This document shows positions 27,171 through 58,553 of a stretch of DNA of 64,000 nt, in pieces (within the stretch, counting starts at the first letter, position 1; every line of letters starts with the position of its first letter). The stretch is from Brachyspira aalborgi (GTDB lineage Bacteria; Spirochaetota; Brachyspiria; Brachyspirales; Brachyspiraceae): NCBI RefSeq assembly GCF_008016455.1, contig NZ_SAXU01000001.1, positions 1,860,001 to 1,924,000 on the forward strand. Reading direction: 5' to 3'. Below the pieces are notes generated by a model that was given only the letters and a program-made list of their open reading frames with translations, had not been told where the DNA came from and did not search any database. The translations under genes and the position numbers were made by a program.

Positions 27171-29618
27171 TTAAGCTGGAACTTCTTCAGCTATAACATC
27201 TATAATATTTTTCTCTTCTAAAGCCTCGTAAGGTATTTTTGCTCTATCTTTTATTATTCTAACAACTATAGGTTTTAATTTGCTGTTAACAAACGCTCTT
27301 CTATAACTTGAAGCAAATACATATTCCAAGAAAGCTTTATTTTGAGTTATTATATTGTCTACTTCATTTGTTAATAATTTCATCTCTTTATCGGATAATA
27401 AGAAGTTTGAAGCCAAATATTCTAAATGTCTTGTGACAATTTCCATCATTGCAACAGTATCGTCTACTATAAACTCATCCATTACAGTTTTAGCAACAGT
27501 TGTAGCTACCATTCCTCCGACAGCACCTCCAACAAAAGAACCGACTATAGGGCCAACTATAGGTATAGGCGATAATAAAACGCCTCCTACAAGTCCCCCT
27601 ATAGTCCCGCCCGTAACTCCGCTTGCCGAAACGACTATATTTTTAATACATTGCATTCCAGATATTCTACCTCTAGCCATTCTTATAATTTCAATAGTCG
27701 AAGTAACGGCTATAGTTGATGACGCAGCAACAGCAGCACCTCGTAATGTTCTGTTGGCTATTTCTGTTGGAGTGCTTTTAGCTGTATGACTTGCATTGCC
27801 ACTCCTTCCTATTTTATACAATCCGCCTCTTAAAAATTTACCATTTGGTAATTTATTGAAGTTAAAATTTATAGCTTCATCTAAAAATAACTTAACTTGA
27901 GGTATTCTTTGCATTTGAGCGGATACCATAAATATAGCAGTTGTTTTTCCAGCCGTTTTTATTCCAATTATTGCTGAAGATTTTATAGCAAGTTTCATAT
28001 CTTTAGTTCGCCAATATGTAATAGCCGTATTAATAGCAAATGATATTCCGCCAGCAGAAAATCCAATAATTGCTCCTTTTCTAAAATCATATAGTAAACT
28101 TTCTATAGTTCCGAATTTAGTCGTATTTACAGCCTGCTCTTGAGTTAGATGTCCCTTTCTAATGATATTTTTAGCATCATTAGGGTCGGTTATACCCTGA
28201 ACTTCACCGTTTTCTATTCTTTTTTCCATTTCTTTTATGGCTGCCTCATATTGGTCTTTTGGAACTTCCAACTGCATAGGTTTTCCATTATCCATATATC
28301 TATATTTGCCATCTCTAAAAGCCTTGTTTACGCTTTCTCGAGCCGTTGCGTAATATTTGGTTTGAATTTTAATGCCATCAACTATTCTATCCGCTCCGTC
28401 TTTAGCGTTATCATCTCCAAGTATCTTTGCATCTTTTCCTTGAATTCTATCTATAAAATCATTTATTCTCTCGGCAGCTACTCCATGTCCACCCCCTTTA
28501 CTAAAAATACTTCTTGCTTCTTCATTAAAATATTGTGAGGCACTAATAGAAGCAACACCCATAGCTCCGCCATCGCTTATGCTTTCTCCTATAGGTTTTT
28601 CTCCAAAATCTTTATCATAAGCTATTTTATAACATAAATTTTCCGTTTCTTCGCACATATCGGAACAGAACCATTCACCTTCTATATTTTCCATCATAGA
28701 CGATAATTTTGCTTTACCACATGAAGCGCAGACTACTATTTTATCTACATTAATATCGTTTACGAAAAAATCGCCATCGTCAAATTCATGCAATTTTATA
28801 TTATCATTTTCAATAATAAAAAAGTCGGATAATAAATTATTTGGTAACGAAAGAGTTTCTTTAATACTGTTTATAGCTATATTTTTATCAACTCTAACAT
28901 CCAATTTAGAAATATCTTCGGCTAAAGATTTACAAGTATTCAAAAAATCTGGATTAAAATATATATCGGTATTAGATAAATGAACTGTATTAACTTTATT
29001 TTTATCTATTAATCTTTCTAAAGTTAACATTAGTATAGCTCTTTTACCTTCAATTTCGTCATCCTCTTTAGCTTTTTTCTGTTTTTTAATTTTAGTTTTT
29101 TCGTCTTTATAATGTATTTCTAATTTTTCGCATAAACCTTCAAAATTACTATATGTTAAACTTTTAATAACTTTTGACATTTTACGCATAAATATTACTA
29201 AATCAAAAGAATAAAATAATGAACCAATTACAAAAATAAAAGCGATTATTCTTAAAGTTATATTATGTAAGATAATATTATTTCCGCTAATTTCTAACGA
29301 TACCGAATAAAATATATATAAAATAGACATGGTATAAACACCAAAATAATAGACAAAACTTACAAATTTTACATAATTAAGTTTTCTTATTTTGAATACT
29401 ACAATATCTTGTATTATTTTTAAGAATATACTAAATAACATTAATAAGCATAATATCGTATGAAAAACGCTTTGCCTTGCATACACTATTAAGGATAATA
29501 ACGCTATTAACGATAATATAGAAGCGACAACTATTCTAATTTTAACAAATTCGAATATCTTGTTTAAAAGTATTGCAACAAGCATAGATAAAAAAGAATA
29601 TAATAAAACTGATAACAT
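27171..29618 (-). CDS. Large accessory membrane protein with zinc site and glycine-zipper region (YeeR-like)
   Basis: The product is 815 aa. About five transmembrane segments occupy residues 1-150, then a charged linker. A four-cysteine putative zinc site follows near residues 308-330 (CASCGKA and WFCSDMCEE). A conserved-looking block lies around 400-500 (GADRIVDGIKIQTKYYATA, KPMQLEVPKDQYEAA, ITDPNDAKNIIRKGH). A Gly-rich segment resembling glycine zippers of membrane-active proteins follows (GGTIGGLVGGVLL, GPIVGSFVGGAVGGM). By recollection the layout resembles the YeeR-type inner membrane proteins of E. coli prophage regions; this was not verified. Its leader carries a pentanucleotide-repeat element. 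The function is unknown. Confidence 0.7.
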   Translation of the reverse strand: MLSVLLYSFLSMLVAILLNKIFEFVKIRIVVASILSLIALLSLIVYARQSVFHTILCLLMLFSIFLKIIQDIVVFKIRKLNYVKFVSFVYYFGVYTMSILYIFYSVSLEISGNNIILHNITLRIIAFIFVIGSLFYSFDLVIFMRKMSKVIKSLTYSNFEGLCEKLEIHYKDEKTKIKKQKKAKEDDEIEGKRAILMLTLERLIDKNKVNTVHLSNTDIYFNPDFLNTCKSLAEDISKLDVRVDKNIAINSIKETLSLPNNLLSDFFIIENDNIKLHEFDDGDFFVNDINVDKIVVCASCGKAKLSSMMENIEGEWFCSDMCEETENLCYKIAYDKDFGEKPIGESISDGGAMGVASISASQYFNEEARSIFSKGGGHGVAAERINDFIDRIQGKDAKILGDDNAKDGADRIVDGIKIQTKYYATARESVNKAFRDGKYRYMDNGKPMQLEVPKDQYEAAIKEMEKRIENGEVQGITDPNDAKNIIRKGHLTQEQAVNTTKFGTIESLLYDFRKGAIIGFSAGGISFAINTAITYWRTKDMKLAIKSSAIIGIKTAGKTTAIFMVSAQMQRIPQVKLFLDEAINFNFNKLPNGKFLRGGLYKIGRSGNASHTAKSTPTEIANRTLRGAAVAASSTIAVTSTIEIIRMARGRISGMQCIKNIVVSASGVTGGTIGGLVGGVLLSPIPIVGPIVGSFVGGAVGGMVATTVAKTVMDEFIVDDTVAMMEIVTRHLEYLASNFLLSDKEMKLLTNEVDNIITQNKAFLEYVFASSYRRAFVNSKLKPIVVRIIKDRAKIPYEALEEKNIIDVIAEEVPA

Positions 29619-29753
29619 AATAACTCCTTATTTTAATTTAATAAAAATAATTTATAAAAACATTTAATTGAATAAATGATTTTACCAAATATGAATTCCA
29701 AATAAATATAATAGTTTTTGTAATTAATAAGTAAACATAAAATTTTAAAAAGT

Positions 29754-29840
29754 TTAAAGCAAATGCTTGGCTTGGCTTGGCTTGGCTTGGCTTGGCTTGG
29801 CTTGGCTTGGCTTCATGAAACTGTAATTTATATTTATCAT
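29754..29840 (-). CDS. Possible leaderless micro-ORF over the CCAAG repeat (element 1)
   Basis: The frame is 28 codons from ATG at 29840 to TAA at 29756-29754. The ATG sits eight bases from the -10 box, about where transcription should begin, so any message would be leaderless. The repeat is translated as an AKPSQ period. The stop lies in CTTTAAAC, a block shared with element 2, where a 29-codon frame ends at the same TAA. It could equally be an untranslated leader RNA. A longer overlapping frame starting at 29859 begins upstream of the predicted transcription start and is unlikely. Confidence 0.25.
   Translation of the reverse strand: MININYSFMKPSQAKPSQAKPSQAKHLL
29765..29813 (-). repeat. 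Pentanucleotide tandem repeat, nine GCTTG units
   Basis: Nine perfect GCTTG units on the plus strand (CAAGC on the minus strand) are followed by a partial unit. It lies between a conserved right-hand promoter and a conserved left-hand block. Copy-number change would shift reading frame unless three units move together. Confidence 0.95.
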
Positions 29841-29847
29841 AATTAAA

Positions 29848-29875
29848 ATTATATAACATTAAAAAAATATGTCAA
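29848..29875 (-). promoter_or_regulatory. Promoter of repeat element 1
   Basis: On the minus strand, TTGACA (29875-29870) and TATAAT (29853-29848) are 16 bp apart. It reads through the pentanucleotide repeat towards the 815-aa gene. The same arrangement recurs at 55762-55790. Confidence 0.7.
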
Positions 29876-29880
29876 ACATT

Positions 29881-30161
29881 ATAATAAAAAAATTAAGAAA
29901 AAATATGATGATTTTATAAAATTTAGCTATTTTTAATTGATAATTTACTATTAGAGCTAAATTTTTTAGAAATTTCATTTTTGAAATAAGTTTAAATTAA
30001 AAAAGGTTATAATTTCAAAAAGTAAAGAGTTAATATTTAAATTTTTTATACATTTTAATCAAAAACGATAATATGCATGCTGTAATCAATTAAGTATTCT
30101 GTTTGCAGGATATCGTCATTGCTAGCAATACACTTTTTTGTTTATTTTTTCTCAATCATTT
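29881..30161. other. Intergenic AT-rich stretch beyond repeat element 1
   Basis: No gene was seen between repeat element 1 and the purL end. It contains an inverted repeat (AAATTTAGCT and AGCTAAATTT, about 29918-29973) followed by T residues and a 12-base palindrome ATTGCTAGCAAT at 30118-30129. No role can be assigned. Confidence 0.4.
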
Positions 30162-33100
30162 TTATTTAAAATATTCAACCGCCGACTTAAACATTTTTAT
30201 GTCGTAATTTCCCAAAACATTTTTATATAATCCTTTTCCGATTCTTTCGCTATGTCCCATTTTTCCAAAAACTCTTCCATCGGGAGATGTAATTCCTTCT
30301 ATTGCATATATAGAACCGTTTGGGTTAAATCTAATATCGTTTGAAGCGTCTCCTTTAAAATCAACATATTGAGTTGCAATCTGTCCGTTTTCTGAAAGTT
30401 TTTTTATTAAATCTTCACTTGCAATAAATCTGCCTTCGCCATGAGATATCGGGACGCTTACTATATCGCCTACATTCATATAAGAAAGCCAAGGAGATTT
30501 ATTTGAAGCGATTCTCGTTCTCACAATTTTTGATTGATGCCTTGAAATCTCATTAAAAGTAAGAGTCGGACAATTTTCATCCGTTTCGATTATCTTGCCA
30601 AAAGGAACTAATCCTAATTTAATTAACGCTTGAAATCCGTTGCATATTCCTAATATTAATCCGCCTCGCTTATCTAAAAGTTTTATCGTCTCTTCTTTTA
30701 TAATATGATTTCTAAAAAATGCTGTTATAAATTTTCCGCTTCCATCAGGTTCGTCTCCTCCCGAAAATCCGCCAGGAATAAAAATTATTTGAGAGGTTTT
30801 TAATTCTTTTGAAAAATTATCAACGCTTTTTTTAATATTATCCGAAGACAAATTATTTATAACCATAATCTTTGCTTTCGCTCCCGCATATTCAAAAGCT
30901 TTTGCGCTTTCGTATTCGCAATTTGTCCCAGGAAAAACGGGAATAATAACTTTTGGTTTTGCAATTTTAATTTTTGAGACGATTCTATTTTTTGTTTCGT
31001 AAGAAAAATTTTTAATCGGTTTTTTATAGGTTTTAATATTGCAAGAATATATTTTTTCAAGTTTGTTTTCGTAAATTAAAGATAATTTTTTTAAGTCAAT
31101 TTTTTCTTTTTTGTATAAAATATATTTTTCAGAAATTATTTTTCCTAAATATATTTCGTCAATATTTTCTTCGGTTTCTATAATAAATCCGCCGTAATTA
31201 TATTTAAATAAATCTTTTAATGAAATTTTAGAATTATATTCAAATCCAAATCCGTTTCCTATGCACATTTTATAAACCGCTTCTGCAATTCCGCCGTAGG
31301 TTAATGTATAGCATGAAAGAATTTTTTTATTTTTCATTAAATTATTTATTTTATAAAAAATAGACAATAAAGATTTTGTTTCGGGCAGTCCATTTTTATC
31401 GTATTTAGGTTTTATAAGATAAACTTTATTTTTAGACTTTTTAAATTCGGGCGATATAATATTTTTTATCTTCGCTGTAGAGATGGCAAACGACACTAAA
31501 GTCGGAGGAACATTGATATTTTCAAAACTTCCGCTCATAGAATCCTTTCCGCCTATCGAGCAAATTTCAAGTTCTTTTTGAGCTTTAAAAGCTCCTAAAA
31601 GCGCAGCCAAAGGTTTTCCCCAACGATTTTTATCTTTTCCCAATTTTTCAAAATATTCTTGAAAAGTAAGATATATTTCTTTAAAGTCTGAACCTGTAGC
31701 TATTAATTTGCAAACCGATTCTATTACGGAAAAATAAGCTCCATGATAAGGACTCTTCTCCATTATAAAAGGATTAAAACCATAACTCATTAAAGAACAA
31801 TTATTAGTTTCTTTTTTTTCAACTGAAATTTTTTGAACCATCGCTTGTATTGGCGTAAGTTGAAATTTTCCTCCGAAAGGCATTAAAACCGTTCCCGCTC
31901 CTATAGTAGAATCGAATCTTTCCGAAAGTCCTCGTTTAGAGCATACATTAATATCTGATAAAAGAGATTTATAACCTTTTACAAAATCTATTGGAATTTT
32001 TTTATCAAAATTTTTAAAAGATTTAATTTTTGCATTTATATGTTTTTTTGCTCCGTTTGAGTTTAAAAATTCTCTCGATATATCGACTATTTTTTTTCCA
32101 TTCCAAAACATTGTTAATTTTGATTCTTTCTTTATCGTAGCAACTTTAACAGCATGCAAATTTTCCTCTTTAGCAAAACTTAAAAATTTTTCAATATCTT
32201 TTTTGTCAATAACTACAGCCATTCTCTCTTGCGATTCGGATATTGCAAGTTCCGTTCCGTCAAGTCCTTCGTATTTTTTCAAAATAGCGTTAAGATTTAT
32301 ATCGATTCCGTCAGAAAGTTCGCCTATTGCAACCGAAACGCCGCCAGCTCCGAAATCATTGCATTTTTTTATAAGTTTTGAAACTTTTGGATTTCTAAAA
32401 AGTCTTTGAAGTTTTCTCTCTTCGGGAGCGTTTCCTTTTTGAACTTCAGCTCCGCATATTTCAATCGATTCTTCAGTATGGGATTTTGAAGAACCTGTAG
32501 CGCCTCCGCATCCGTCTCTTCCCGTGCTTCCGCCTATAAGAATGACTATATCGCCCGCAATCGGTTTTTTTCTTTTAATATTTTTTTCGGGAACAGCCGC
32601 TATAACCGCTCCAATTTCCATGTGTTTTGCTAAATATCCATTATGATAAATTTCATCGACAATTCCCGTAGCCAAACCTATTTGATTTCCATAAGAAGAA
32701 TATCCTTCCGCCGCCGTTGTGACTATTTTTCTTTGGGGCAATTTGCCTTTTAAAGTTTTAGAAATTGAAACCGTAGGATTTGCAGCTCCCGTAATTCTCA
32801 TAGCGCCATAAACATAACCTCTCCCAGAAAGCGGGTCTCTTATAGCTCCGCCTATGCAGGTAGCCGCTCCTCCAAAAGGCTCTATTTCGGTTGGATGATT
32901 ATGAGTTTCGTTTTTGAAAAGCAAAATCCAATTTTCAATTTTTCCGTCAACTTCTATATTTATTTTTACAGAGCAAGCGTTAATCTCTTCCGATTCGTCA
33001 AGTTTTTTAAGCTTTCCATTTTTTTTGAAATATTTTATTAAAACGGTAGCTAAATCCATAAGACAAATTGGTTTATTATCTTTTAATTCTTTTCTAATTG

Positions 33101-54466: not shown

Positions 54467-55468
54467 TTAATATTTTATTCTTTCAAATCTGCCGTCTAAA
54501 TAATTAGATAATTGAGACGATAAATTTGAATTAATATCTTTAACTAATTTATTCATTATTACTTTTTTAGCGTCTTTTTCTGAAGCTCCGCCGTCCTTTC
54601 CTTTATACTTAAAAGAGGCAATTCTCTCTCCGTTATAATTTATAAGTTCTAAAATTAAAGTATAATTCATAATATACATTCCATATCCCGTGTCATTTCC
54701 GTCAAAAGTAAATTTATCTCTAAAAATATAACTTGGATTTGAACTAATCTTAAATCCTAAATCGCTTATAGAATGTTCTATTGCCGATTCTATATTTGGA
54801 GTAATATCAAAAGCTTCAATTCCAAAAGATATTTTTCTTTTAACGCTCTCCATACTCGATTTTATTCTTTCAATTCTATAACTATCTAAAACATCTATTT
54901 TTGAAGAGTTATCTAATATTGATAATTGATTTATAAAATTTTCATTCTTTTCAGAAAATATATAAGCTATATATAAAGTATAATATTTATCAAATAAATC
55001 TTTTTCGCTATTTGATTTTAATATATAAGAATCTATAATTTTTATATTGTCCTTAATCTTTTTATTCAAAAGTAATGCGGTTTCTTTTTTATTTAAAACG
55101 GCTATAACATAATATTTATTCTTTTTTGTATCATAATATCTTGAATCTATCTTTACATTTATAAGATTATGCTTTGCTTCTATTTTAGTGCTATTATCCA
55201 AACTCCTAATTTCTTCTACTCCTAAAGAAGTTTCAATATATTTTTCATTAGCTTTAGTATCTACCGAAATATTCATTCCAAATATATTTGCTAAAATAGA
55301 ATAAGCGTTATCTTCCGCTTCTTTCTCGCTTATTCCCTGCCCAACTCCTACTTCGTAAATATTTTTATCATAAACTTTTTGAGGATTTAATATCCATTCT
55401 GGTTGTTTTTGTCCATAAAGATTTATTCCAATATTTAATAATAAAATACAAATAAATAATCTCTTCAT
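54467..55468 (-). CDS. LPP20-like exported protein
   Basis: The product is 333 aa. A signal peptide (about 1-19, LNIGINLYGQ) is followed by the LPP20 pattern QPEWILNPQKVYDKNIYEVGVGQGISEKEAEDNAYS-type helix, and later KNKYYVIAVLNKKE. In other bacteria LPP20 and CsgG/LpoB domains occur together in outer-membrane assemblies, which suits the downstream CsgG/ankyrin gene. It is the first gene of the minus-strand cluster, with a conserved leader and a pentanucleotide-repeat element upstream. Confidence 0.7.
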   Translation of the reverse strand: MKRLFICILLLNIGINLYGQKQPEWILNPQKVYDKNIYEVGVGQGISEKEAEDNAYSILANIFGMNISVDTKANEKYIETSLGVEEIRSLDNSTKIEAKHNLINVKIDSRYYDTKKNKYYVIAVLNKKETALLLNKKIKDNIKIIDSYILKSNSEKDLFDKYYTLYIAYIFSEKNENFINQLSILDNSSKIDVLDSYRIERIKSSMESVKRKISFGIEAFDITPNIESAIEHSISDLGFKISSNPSYIFRDKFTFDGNDTGYGMYIMNYTLILELINYNGERIASFKYKGKDGGASEKDAKKVIMNKLVKDINSNLSSQLSNYLDGRFERIKY

Positions 55469-55525
55469 AATAAAAATCTCCTTAAAAATACATTCTACAA
55501 AAAAGCCCCTTAAAATATTATATTT
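55466..55525 (-). promoter_or_regulatory. Conserved leader, copy B (ahead of the LPP20-like gene)
   Basis: It is nearly identical to 37335-37389, reading AAATATAATAT, GGGGCTTTTTT, GTAGAATGTATTTTT, AAGGAG and ATGAAGA. It contains a TATAAT box and the ribosome binding site. Confidence 0.6.
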
Positions 55526-55664
55526 CCGTAATAAACATTTAAATAAATAAATGCTTTCTGCCGTGTAAAAATTAATAAATTCAAAAAAGAATTTGAATAA
55601 GTTTTTAATATATAAACAGAATAATATTTTATAATTAATAAGTAAACATAAACTTGAAAAAAGT

Positions 55665-55754
55665 TTAAAGTGATGCTGAGCTGAGCTGAGCTGAGCTGAG
55701 CTGAGCTGAGCTGCCGCAGAATTTATTGTTTATATTATTACCATTTACTTTCAT
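55665..55754 (-). CDS. Possible leaderless micro-ORF over the CAGCT repeat (element 2)
   Basis: The frame is 29 codons from ATG at 55754 to TAA at 55667-55665. As in element 1, the ATG is eight bases from the -10 box and the stop falls in the shared CTTTAAAC. The repeat encodes SSAQL periods. It could be a non-translated leader instead. One additional 5-base unit would put this frame in register with the downstream LPP20-like gene, with no stop in between. Confidence 0.25.
   Translation of the reverse strand: MKVNGNNINNKFCGSSAQLSSAQLSSASL
55675..55713 (-). repeat. Pentanucleotide tandem repeat, seven GCTGA units
   Basis: Seven perfect GCTGA units on the plus strand are followed by a partial unit. 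The left flank shares a 21-base identity (TAATTAATAAGTAAACATAAA) plus AAAAAGTTTAAAG with the repeat at 29765-29813, although the repeat unit itself differs. Confidence 0.95.
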
Positions 55755-55790: not shown

Positions 55791-55895
55791 GCGTTAAATT
55801 AAAAAAAATTATAACTAAAAAAGAATTTGATTAAACTAACAAAATAACATATACTATCAAAATTAACAAAATTATTTATTTTGGATTATAATTTT

Positions 55896-58553
55896 ATGGA
55901 AGAAGATTTTTTTACTGTAAACAAAAAAGAAGAAAATTCAAAATTAACTCCCATGATGAAACAGTATAGAGATATAAAAGATAAATATTCCGATAGCATT
56001 GTGCTTTTTCGTATGGGAGATTTTTACGAGGCTTTTTTTGAAGATGCCGAAAAATTAGCGCAAATATTAAGTATTACATTAACTAAAAGAGCTAATGTTC
56101 CAATGTCGGGATTTCCTTATCATGCGATAGACGGATATTTATCGAAGCTTGTAAAGTCGGGAGTAAAAATAGCGATTTGCGAACAGATGGAAGACCCGAA
56201 AACAGCTAAAGGAATAGTAAAGAGAGATGTAACTCAAGTTATAACTCCAGGCACAATATCCGAAAATAAATATTTACAATCGAAAAGCAATAATTATTTA
56301 GCTTCAATTATAATTTCAAAAAATCAACAAAATGTTGCAATTTCTATATGCGATGTTTCTACGGGCGAATTATATATTACCGAAATAGAAAACGAAAACT
56401 TAAAAGAGATTATAGAAGAAGTTTGCGAAGAGATAATAAAATTTTATCCGAAAGAGATAATGACTATAGATTCTTTAAAAGAAAATGAAATAATAAAAGA
56501 GATACAAAAAAGATTTTCAAAAATATTTTATAGCCATACTCCCGATTATTTTGCAGAATATTCTTATGCTTATAAAACTCTTATCAATCATTTTAAAACT
56601 TTATCTTTAAAAAGTTTTGGCATAGAAGACAAACATTTATTAATATCTTTAGCGGGTTCTACAATACATTATATAAGCGAGCTTGCAAAACATTCTTTAG
56701 AGCATATATCTAATATTAAAATTTACGATAAAAAAGCTACAATGACTTTAGATTATGCGACAATATCGAATTTGGAAATACTTACAACTATAAGAAATGA
56801 TAATTATAAAATGACTTTATTCGACACTATAGACAGAACAAAAACTTCTATGGGAGCGAGATATTTAAAAAGAATTATTGTAGAGCCTTTGCTTAATATA
56901 AACGAAATAAATAAAAGACTCGATAATGTTGACTTTTTTTATAAAAACATAAAATTAACTTATAAAATTAGAGATATATTAACGGATATAGGAGATATTG
57001 AAAGGCTTACTTCAAAATTAGCTTTGGGCAGAATAAATCCTAAAGAATTAGTCGCTTTAAAAAGATTTTTAATTTTATCTTTGGAAGCTATTACGGAGCT
57101 TGCGATAAACGATTTTGAAGAAGCGAATTTTGAAGAAGTTAATGATATAAAAATAATAATCGATTTAATAGAAAGAGCGATACTTGAAGACCCGAAGATA
57201 ACTACAAACGAAGGCGATATAATAAAAGACGAATATAATGAAACATTAAAAAAGTATAACGAAGCTAAAAGAGAAAGCAGAAATTGGATAAGCGAACTTG
57301 AAGGAAATTATAAATCTGAAACGGGAATAAATAGCTTAAAAATAAGATACAATAATATTATTGGTTATTATATAGAAGTTACAAAAGCCAATGTGTCTGC
57401 AGTTCCAAAAGATTTTATAAAAAGGCAAACTCTATCAAACGGCGAAAGATTTATAACAGAAAAATTAATGGAATACGAAAGAATAATTAACGAAGCGAAT
57501 GAAAAAAGTTACGCTTTAGAATACGAAATATTTACTGAAGTTAAAAATAAAGTAAGCGATTATTTAACTTCAATATTAAAAATGGCAAAAATAATTTCAA
57601 TAATAGATGTTTATTCTTCGCTTTCAATTTTAGCAAAAGAAGATAATTATACCAAACCGATAATGACAGAAGACGGAATTATAGATATAAAAGAAGGCAG
57701 GCATCCCGTAGTTGAAGCGAATTTAATTGACGAAAGTTTTATTCCAAACGACATTTATTTAGATAATAATAAAGAACATTTGCTTATAATAACGGGACCG
57801 AATATGAGCGGAAAAAGCACTTATTTAAGACAAACCGCTTTAATAGTTTTACTCGCTCAAATAGGTTCTTTTGTTCCCGCCTCAAGCGCAAAAATATCTA
57901 TAGTCGACAGAATATTTACAAGAGTAGGAGCGAGCGATAATATTGCAAGAGGCGAAAGCACTTTTTTAGTCGAAATGAATGAAACCGCTTATATTTTGAA
58001 TCATTGCACAAATAAAAGTTTAATAATTATGGACGAAATTGGAAGAGGAACTTCCACTTATGACGGACTTTCAATAGCTTGGGCGATAGTAGAATATTTG
58101 ACTAGCGAAGAAAATAAAAAGTCAAAAACTTTATTTGCAACTCATTATCATGAACTTACAATGCTTGAAGATTTGGACGGCGTTAAAAATTATAAAGTGT
58201 CGGTTGAAGAATATAAAGACGAAATTATTTTTATGAAAAAAGTTATTGAAGGAGCTGCGGAATCAAGTTATGGAATTTACGCCGCAAAAATAGCGGGAGC
58301 GCCAAATAAAATTATAAAAAGAGCGTCTGAAATATTAAAAAAATTAGAAAACGAAGCGGGCATTCAATTTGAAAATATAGAATTAAAAAATAAAAAATCT
58401 TTAGAATTTCTGCCTTTGTATAATAATGATAACGAAATAAAAACCGTTATAAAAGAAAGCGAAATTGAAAAAGAAATTAAAGAATTGAATATTAATGAAA
58501 TTACTCCGATTGAAGCGATTAATTTAATAAGTAAGTGGAAAAAGGATTTATAA
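55896..58553 (+). CDS. mutS: DNA mismatch repair protein MutS
   Basis: The product is about 885 aa. The mismatch-contacting Phe-x-Glu is in FRMGDFYEAFF near the N-terminus. The ATPase shows TGPNMSGKSTYLRQ (Walker A), SLIIMDEIGRGTSTYDG (Walker B and signature) and FATHYHEL. I prefer the ATG at 55896 with TTTGGA upstream; an in-frame TTG at 55881 would add five residues. No mutL is adjacent. Confidence 0.96.
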   Translation: MEEDFFTVNKKEENSKLTPMMKQYRDIKDKYSDSIVLFRMGDFYEAFFEDAEKLAQILSITLTKRANVPMSGFPYHAIDGYLSKLVKSGVKIAICEQMEDPKTAKGIVKRDVTQVITPGTISENKYLQSKSNNYLASIIISKNQQNVAISICDVSTGELYITEIENENLKEIIEEVCEEIIKFYPKEIMTIDSLKENEIIKEIQKRFSKIFYSHTPDYFAEYSYAYKTLINHFKTLSLKSFGIEDKHLLISLAGSTIHYISELAKHSLEHISNIKIYDKKATMTLDYATISNLEILTTIRNDNYKMTLFDTIDRTKTSMGARYLKRIIVEPLLNINEINKRLDNVDFFYKNIKLTYKIRDILTDIGDIERLTSKLALGRINPKELVALKRFLILSLEAITELAINDFEEANFEEVNDIKIIIDLIERAILEDPKITTNEGDIIKDEYNETLKKYNEAKRESRNWISELEGNYKSETGINSLKIRYNNIIGYYIEVTKANVSAVPKDFIKRQTLSNGERFITEKLMEYERIINEANEKSYALEYEIFTEVKNKVSDYLTSILKMAKIISIIDVYSSLSILAKEDNYTKPIMTEDGIIDIKEGRHPVVEANLIDESFIPNDIYLDNNKEHLLIITGPNMSGKSTYLRQTALIVLLAQIGSFVPASSAKISIVDRIFTRVGASDNIARGESTFLVEMNETAYILNHCTNKSLIIMDEIGRGTSTYDGLSIAWAIVEYLTSEENKKSKTLFATHYHELTMLEDLDGVKNYKVSVEEYKDEIIFMKKVIEGAAESSYGIYAAKIAGAPNKIIKRASEILKKLENEAGIQFENIELKNKKSLEFLPLYNNDNEIKTVIKESEIEKEIKELNINEITPIEAINLISKWKKDL

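Follow-up and report, generated by a model that had tools for sequence, protein, structure and literature searches.

Simple-sequence contingency loci are exemplified by lic1A and mod of Haemophilus and by opa of Neisseria, in which the repeat lies inside the gene. The Brachyspira leaders described here share with these loci a short tandem repeat, slippage, the use of frame as a switch and surface-modification targets, but their repeat sits in a separate leader ORF, and the gene keeps its own start, with its frame unaffected at most loci. The nearest known precedent is found in Haemophilus influenzae, where lex2A carries tetranucleotide repeats and lex2B is a glycosyltransferase gene (PMC3116884), so that the repeat again occupies an ORF apart from that of the enzyme. 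However, lex2A/lex2B is a single locus built of tetranucleotides, whereas Brachyspira has pentamers at many loci per genome, in front of many unrelated targets. Leader-ORF coupling by termination-reinitiation, with its ATGA overlaps, is similar in that an upstream ORF stops at a downstream start; in Brachyspira, unlike in ordinary coupling, a repeat switches the frame of that upstream ORF. Phase variation and coupling are distinct phenomena in the GeneTack survey, which puts them in separate classes (PMC3711429), and we found no description in the open-access literature of repeat-driven phase variation or slippage in Brachyspira, or of coupling combined with repeats.

The window analysed here, a stretch of 64,000 nucleotides from Brachyspira aalborgi, holds two such leaders, which are the sole perfect pentamer arrays with TRF scores of 98 and 78 within the 64-kb window. 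A first-pass annotation had described copy 1 as a promoter, an ATG, a pentamer array, CTTTAAAC and a 21-base block, and all of these elements were located where it had placed them, on the minus strand:

29875-29870 and 29853-29848, minus strand: promoter of copy 1, TTGACA and TATAAT with a 16-nt spacer (12/12 consensus match)
29840-29838, minus strand: leader ATG, 7 nt downstream of the -10 box
29754-29840, minus strand: leader ORF in its present frame, by translation 28 aa (MININYSFMKPSQAKPSQAKPSQAKHLL), with its stop TAA within CTTTAAAC
29765-29813, minus strand: CCAAG array, 9.8 perfect copies (TRF score 98)
29759-29752, minus strand: CTTTAAAC of copy 1
29633-29759, minus strand: conserved tail, read as FKLFKILCLLINYK... 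with 10 (or 7) units
29721-29741, minus strand: shared 21-base block TTTATGTTTACTTATTAATTA, with 7 exact copies in the genome
27171-29618, minus strand: downstream gene, 815 aa, with membrane segments at its N terminus; it partially matches the candidate defence family PDC-M09B

The promoter of copy 1 is unmatched in quality elsewhere in 600 bp, and the spacing of the ATG from the -10 box agrees with the earlier suggestion of a leaderless start, if transcription begins where the promoter predicts. The sense strand of the CCAAG array has no stop codon in any of the three frames, and the leader ORF ends at 29754, the final base of its stop codon. With 9 units this stop lies 135 nt before the ATG of the 815-aa gene; the distance would shrink to 14 nt at 10 (or 7) units and to 19 nt at 8 or 11. 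The proposal that unit number could switch frames is supported in that 8, 9 and 10 units give different stops. As two frames out of three terminate 14-19 nt short of the gene, the ON/OFF contrast at copy 1 would be 2:1 and run the opposite way. Rfam models gave no match to 29400-30200 up to an E value of 1.

The same architecture was also said to recur with a different unit and an unrelated downstream gene, and this was borne out at 55.7 kb, where the unit is CTCAG:

55790-55785 and 55767-55762, minus strand: promoter of copy 2, TTGACA and TATAAT with a 17-nt spacer, read directly
55665-55754, minus strand: leader ORF in its present frame, 29 aa (MKVNGNNINNKFCGSSAQLSSAQLSSASL), with its ATG at 55754
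55675-55713, minus strand: CTCAG array, 7.8 perfect copies (TRF score 78)
55670-55663, minus strand: CTTTAAAC of copy 2
55652-55632, minus strand: 21-base block of copy 2
55469-55670, minus strand: tail of copy 2, through which frame +0 runs open into the 333-aa gene
54467-55468, minus strand: downstream gene, 333 aa, LPP20-type lipoprotein (Pfam PF02169, E 5.8e-6)

Both leaders are at present in a short frame, which stops soon after the array, and one further unit would couple either of them to its gene; at copy 2 the added unit would align the frame of the leader with that of the 333-aa gene. Next to copy 2, in divergent orientation, lies mutS (55881-58553 of the window), and mismatch repair could influence slippage rates.

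The B. aalborgi genome (2,504,147 bases in 8 contigs) and related genomes were searched for the block and for pentamers, as the annotation had recommended, and further copies were found. A longer tail pattern has nine exact and two divergent copies (c4 and c8) in B. aalborgi, 11 in total, and at least six in B. catarrhinii Z12, with 0 matches for its reversed control, which upholds the view that the element is regulatory, defined and recurrent, and not a chance microsatellite. The repeat unit does change between conserved flanks, as had been noted: it is CTCAG, CCAAG or CAAAG in B. aalborgi and CGAGC or ACGTC in B. catarrhinii, whose contig ends often fall within the block, as is expected of a repeat. 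The genes behind the tail-block copies are unrelated and encode the 815-aa membrane protein, an LPP20-type lipoprotein, zinc-ribbon proteins, a TM2 protein, a PD-(D/E)XK nuclease and dynamin-like GTPases; at L043 and L046, CCAAG leaders without the block lie upstream of glycosyltransferases. The tail peptide, searched for across other Brachyspira species, is confined to these two related species, with two weak matches besides, which marks the tail block as a family of local spread, whereas the array design extends across the genus. The block was absent from viral contigs, and thus these gave no sign of an origin in a phage element.

Within the tail family, the leader ATG follows the TATAAT box, in copies having one, by 6-10 nt (usually 7), and the leader ORF is open on entering the array in every copy. 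Across the two species, 16 of 17 copies are in the short frame and stop a few bases past the array; in 15 of these the stop codon is the TAA of CTTTAAAC or of a TTTTAAA or ATTTAAA variant of it. This bias has p = 3e-7 if frames are independent and random, an assumption to be read with the fact that some copies are recent duplicates; the subfamily is therefore not a random mixture. Only c9 is in the long frame, running in frame into its lipoprotein gene. The long frame (FKLF..LCLL...) of the tail-block copies extends as far as the downstream start. In c7 it stops 2 nt short of the ATG, whereas in c8 and c10 there is an ATGA overlap and in c3 and c5 an overlap of 20-35 nt; in c2, c9 and g6 it shares the frame of the gene. 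Near 3569 of L057 (minus strand), the LPP20 tail of B. catarrhinii has an extra stretch with a strong hairpin, and the long frame is still open into the gene. Read from the sequence, the tail is an alternative reading frame joining the array to the downstream start codon, a point that goes beyond the first-pass annotation, whose interpretation as a whole is partly supported.

The array design was surveyed by a pattern search for pentamer units containing a GC dinucleotide, together with arrays met by chance in the stretches examined. The pattern was matched in 23 of 26 Brachyspira genomes, some counts being near those of the reversed control, which itself picks up other arrays. AT-rich ACAAT arrays of the same leader design were also seen (L137, 4235-4329; L173, upstream of 1500), so the GC-unit survey undercounts. 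One locus was sampled from most genomes, together with the listed arrays of the B. aalborgi genome, and the strand was set by the nearest leader ATG and gene, blind to frames, to give 43 loci. In 42 of these at least one frame stays free of stops all the way from the array to position -40 relative to the gene start or beyond, where dinucleotide shuffles predict 9.2 (sd 1.9) such loci and real intergenic regions 10.9 (sd 2.5); counted by gene family, the rule holds in 32 of 33, against about 7 expected. These open frames usually either terminate no more than 35 nt from the gene start or continue in frame into the gene, and their stops frequently overlap the start codon (+4, as ATGA, +8, +16 or +19), as in a translationally coupled leader ORF. 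Outside the tail-block family, most of the remaining frames meet a stop codon no more than 20 nt past the array. The coupled frame is occupied now in about one third of the 43 loci. In most loci it differs from the frame of the gene and the leader ORF of the repeat is separate from it, the fused form being limited to loci like c2, c9, g6 and those of the CAAAG lipoproteins. The repeat is perfect, its unit is not divisible by three, and it lies in a leader ORF that is presumably translated rather than inside the ORF of the regulated gene. Judged on sequence by their repeat, frame and slippage logic, these leaders are contingency loci, but not of the classical in-gene form, and their recurring design looks like genus-wide random on/off gene switching.

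Comparisons between species reveal turnover of the arrays. The MBOAT O-acyltransferase orthologues of 14 species have a leader ATG and an array of 5-16 GC units (ATCGC, ACCGC, ACAGC, GCACC, AGCAC, GCACA or AACCG), and the MBOAT leader of B. aalborgi has ACAAT units. The coupled frame ends between -2 and +19 in all 14 species, of which eight are now coupled and six short. In orthologous arrays, unit number, unit sequence and present frame all vary, so that unit number varies and shifts the frame between species. For example, two related species with near-identical flanks are exactly four CCAAG-type units apart and hence differ in frame, and in another pair a single-base difference is present in each of 12 units, which points to repeated contraction and expansion. 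We take this turnover as comparative evidence for slippage, as distinct from within-strain proof. In stretches of B. hyodysenteriae plasmids, examined as a strain comparison, arrays were absent.

Across the genus, array leaders precede genes for glycosyltransferases, FkbM methyltransferases, MBOAT proteins, a dTDP-sugar epimerase, lipoproteins, TM2 proteins and ABC and PTS proteins. Among the tail-block targets, that of c11 (LeoA/LeoBC-like), that of c6 (PDC-S26) and the 815-aa protein (PDC-M09B) have partial matches to candidate defence families, making defence a candidate role for these targets. Several of the tail-block leaders L042-L051 (c3-c11) are upstream of candidate defence-type genes (dynamin-like GTPases and the PD-(D/E)XK nuclease). 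Separately, CAGAG arrays of 8-18 units occur at the 3' end of surface-sugar-type enzyme genes (L136, 1975-2064; L137, 2235-2274; L139, 2432-2476; L148, 1873-1937), mostly followed by a shared cap, GTAATGTTTGAATATGCTTATCGAAAANCGGCAT; these are possibly phase-variable C termini.

We consider it likely that slippage in a leader ORF that is translated turns translational coupling to the following gene on and off, the gain or loss of one unit probably deciding whether ribosomes read through to the gene start. The strong promoter would give an mRNA whose first start codon is at or near the 5' end, and a ribosome would cover about 10 codons before it entered the pentamer array, which is stop-free in all frames. 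Since the unit is five bases long, the exit frame would shift with each unit gained or lost by replication slippage. In the short state, which would take up two of three frames (one of three in the tail-block family), translation would terminate no more than about 20 nt past the array and leave some 60-280 nt of untranslated RNA ahead of the gene. In the coupled state, the ribosome would reach the ribosome-binding site and start codon of the gene, and either stop beside or past them or enter in frame. We infer that the gene is translated more in the coupled state, through the opening of its start region or through re-initiation, and less in the short state. At the MBOAT loci, the ribosome-binding site lies inside a hairpin of up to 13 pairs, which the coupled frame enters; this hairpin has been kept through one-sided changes, with zero double compensations. 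However, start regions on average are no more structured than controls (unpaired fraction 0.40 versus 0.43, p = 0.22), so general hairpin masking of the gene start was rejected and the mechanism may vary by locus. Pairing of the tail block with the ribosome-binding site, which is present in copy 1, was also rejected, being inconsistent across the family.

Besides the average structure of the start regions, the short frame shared by 16 of 17 tail-block copies and the contrast at copy 1, two features count against a switch by coupling, namely that most genes retain a good ribosome-binding site, so that expression might occur without coupling, and that in several families the coupled frame would place an N-terminal extension before the signal peptide. 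Both fit a switch of the opposite sign, in which ribosomes traversing the start region would block initiation or yield a mislocalised, N-terminally extended protein, the short state being ON: the extra residues would precede the signal peptide at c2, c9, g6 and the CAAAG lipoprotein loci, and the short frame predominates among the tail-block copies. We nevertheless regard this sign as distinctly improbable, because the majority of coupled frames have a stop no more than 35 nt from the start codon, in the manner of termination-reinitiation, a stop that interference would not need, and because the leader ribosome would open the hairpin in which the MBOAT start sits. The untranslated RNA of the short state could instead allow Rho or a hairpin to halt transcription before the gene, a phase-variable attenuation or polarity with which array-gene gaps of 60-280 nt and gap hairpins at L043, L046 and L111 are consistent. 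A terminator-like site is absent from 29500-30100, and the gaps are 48-103 nt in 13 of the 14 MBOAT loci, short for Rho, which makes attenuation unlikely.

A functional micro-peptide, as the first-pass annotation had suggested, might explain why the ATG and a short ORF are conserved and why the tail-block copies favour a common frame. A pentamer gives an identical pentapeptide repeat whichever frame is read. Among loci and among orthologues the unit varies, as do the sequence and length of the peptide, and when related tails are compared their substitutions are spread roughly equally over the three codon positions, with third positions not favoured, so that a peptide function is very doubtful. 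The conserved property is instead a frame running open as far as the next gene's start. It is harder still to believe that the arrays alter only the spacing or RNA structure of the 5' UTR: although they do lie between promoter and gene, this would leave unexplained both the frame kept open to the start codon and the stop-free units of the sense strand.

There is perhaps an even chance that the promoter, leaderless pentamer ORF and coupling tail form a portable phase-switch cassette, recombined before dozens of unrelated operons that include candidate anti-phage genes, and giving genome-wide bet-hedging through translational coupling rather than through the gene's own frame. If frame switching of a coupled leader ORF is correct, the leaders would be a clear natural case of phase variation via coupling, in which repeat units change between fixed flanks. 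Brachyspira includes agents of swine dysentery and of human colonic spirochaetosis. As the frame rule predicts the state of each switch from sequence alone, many surface and defence-like loci could be tested at once, and existing isolate genomes can be scored by it directly.
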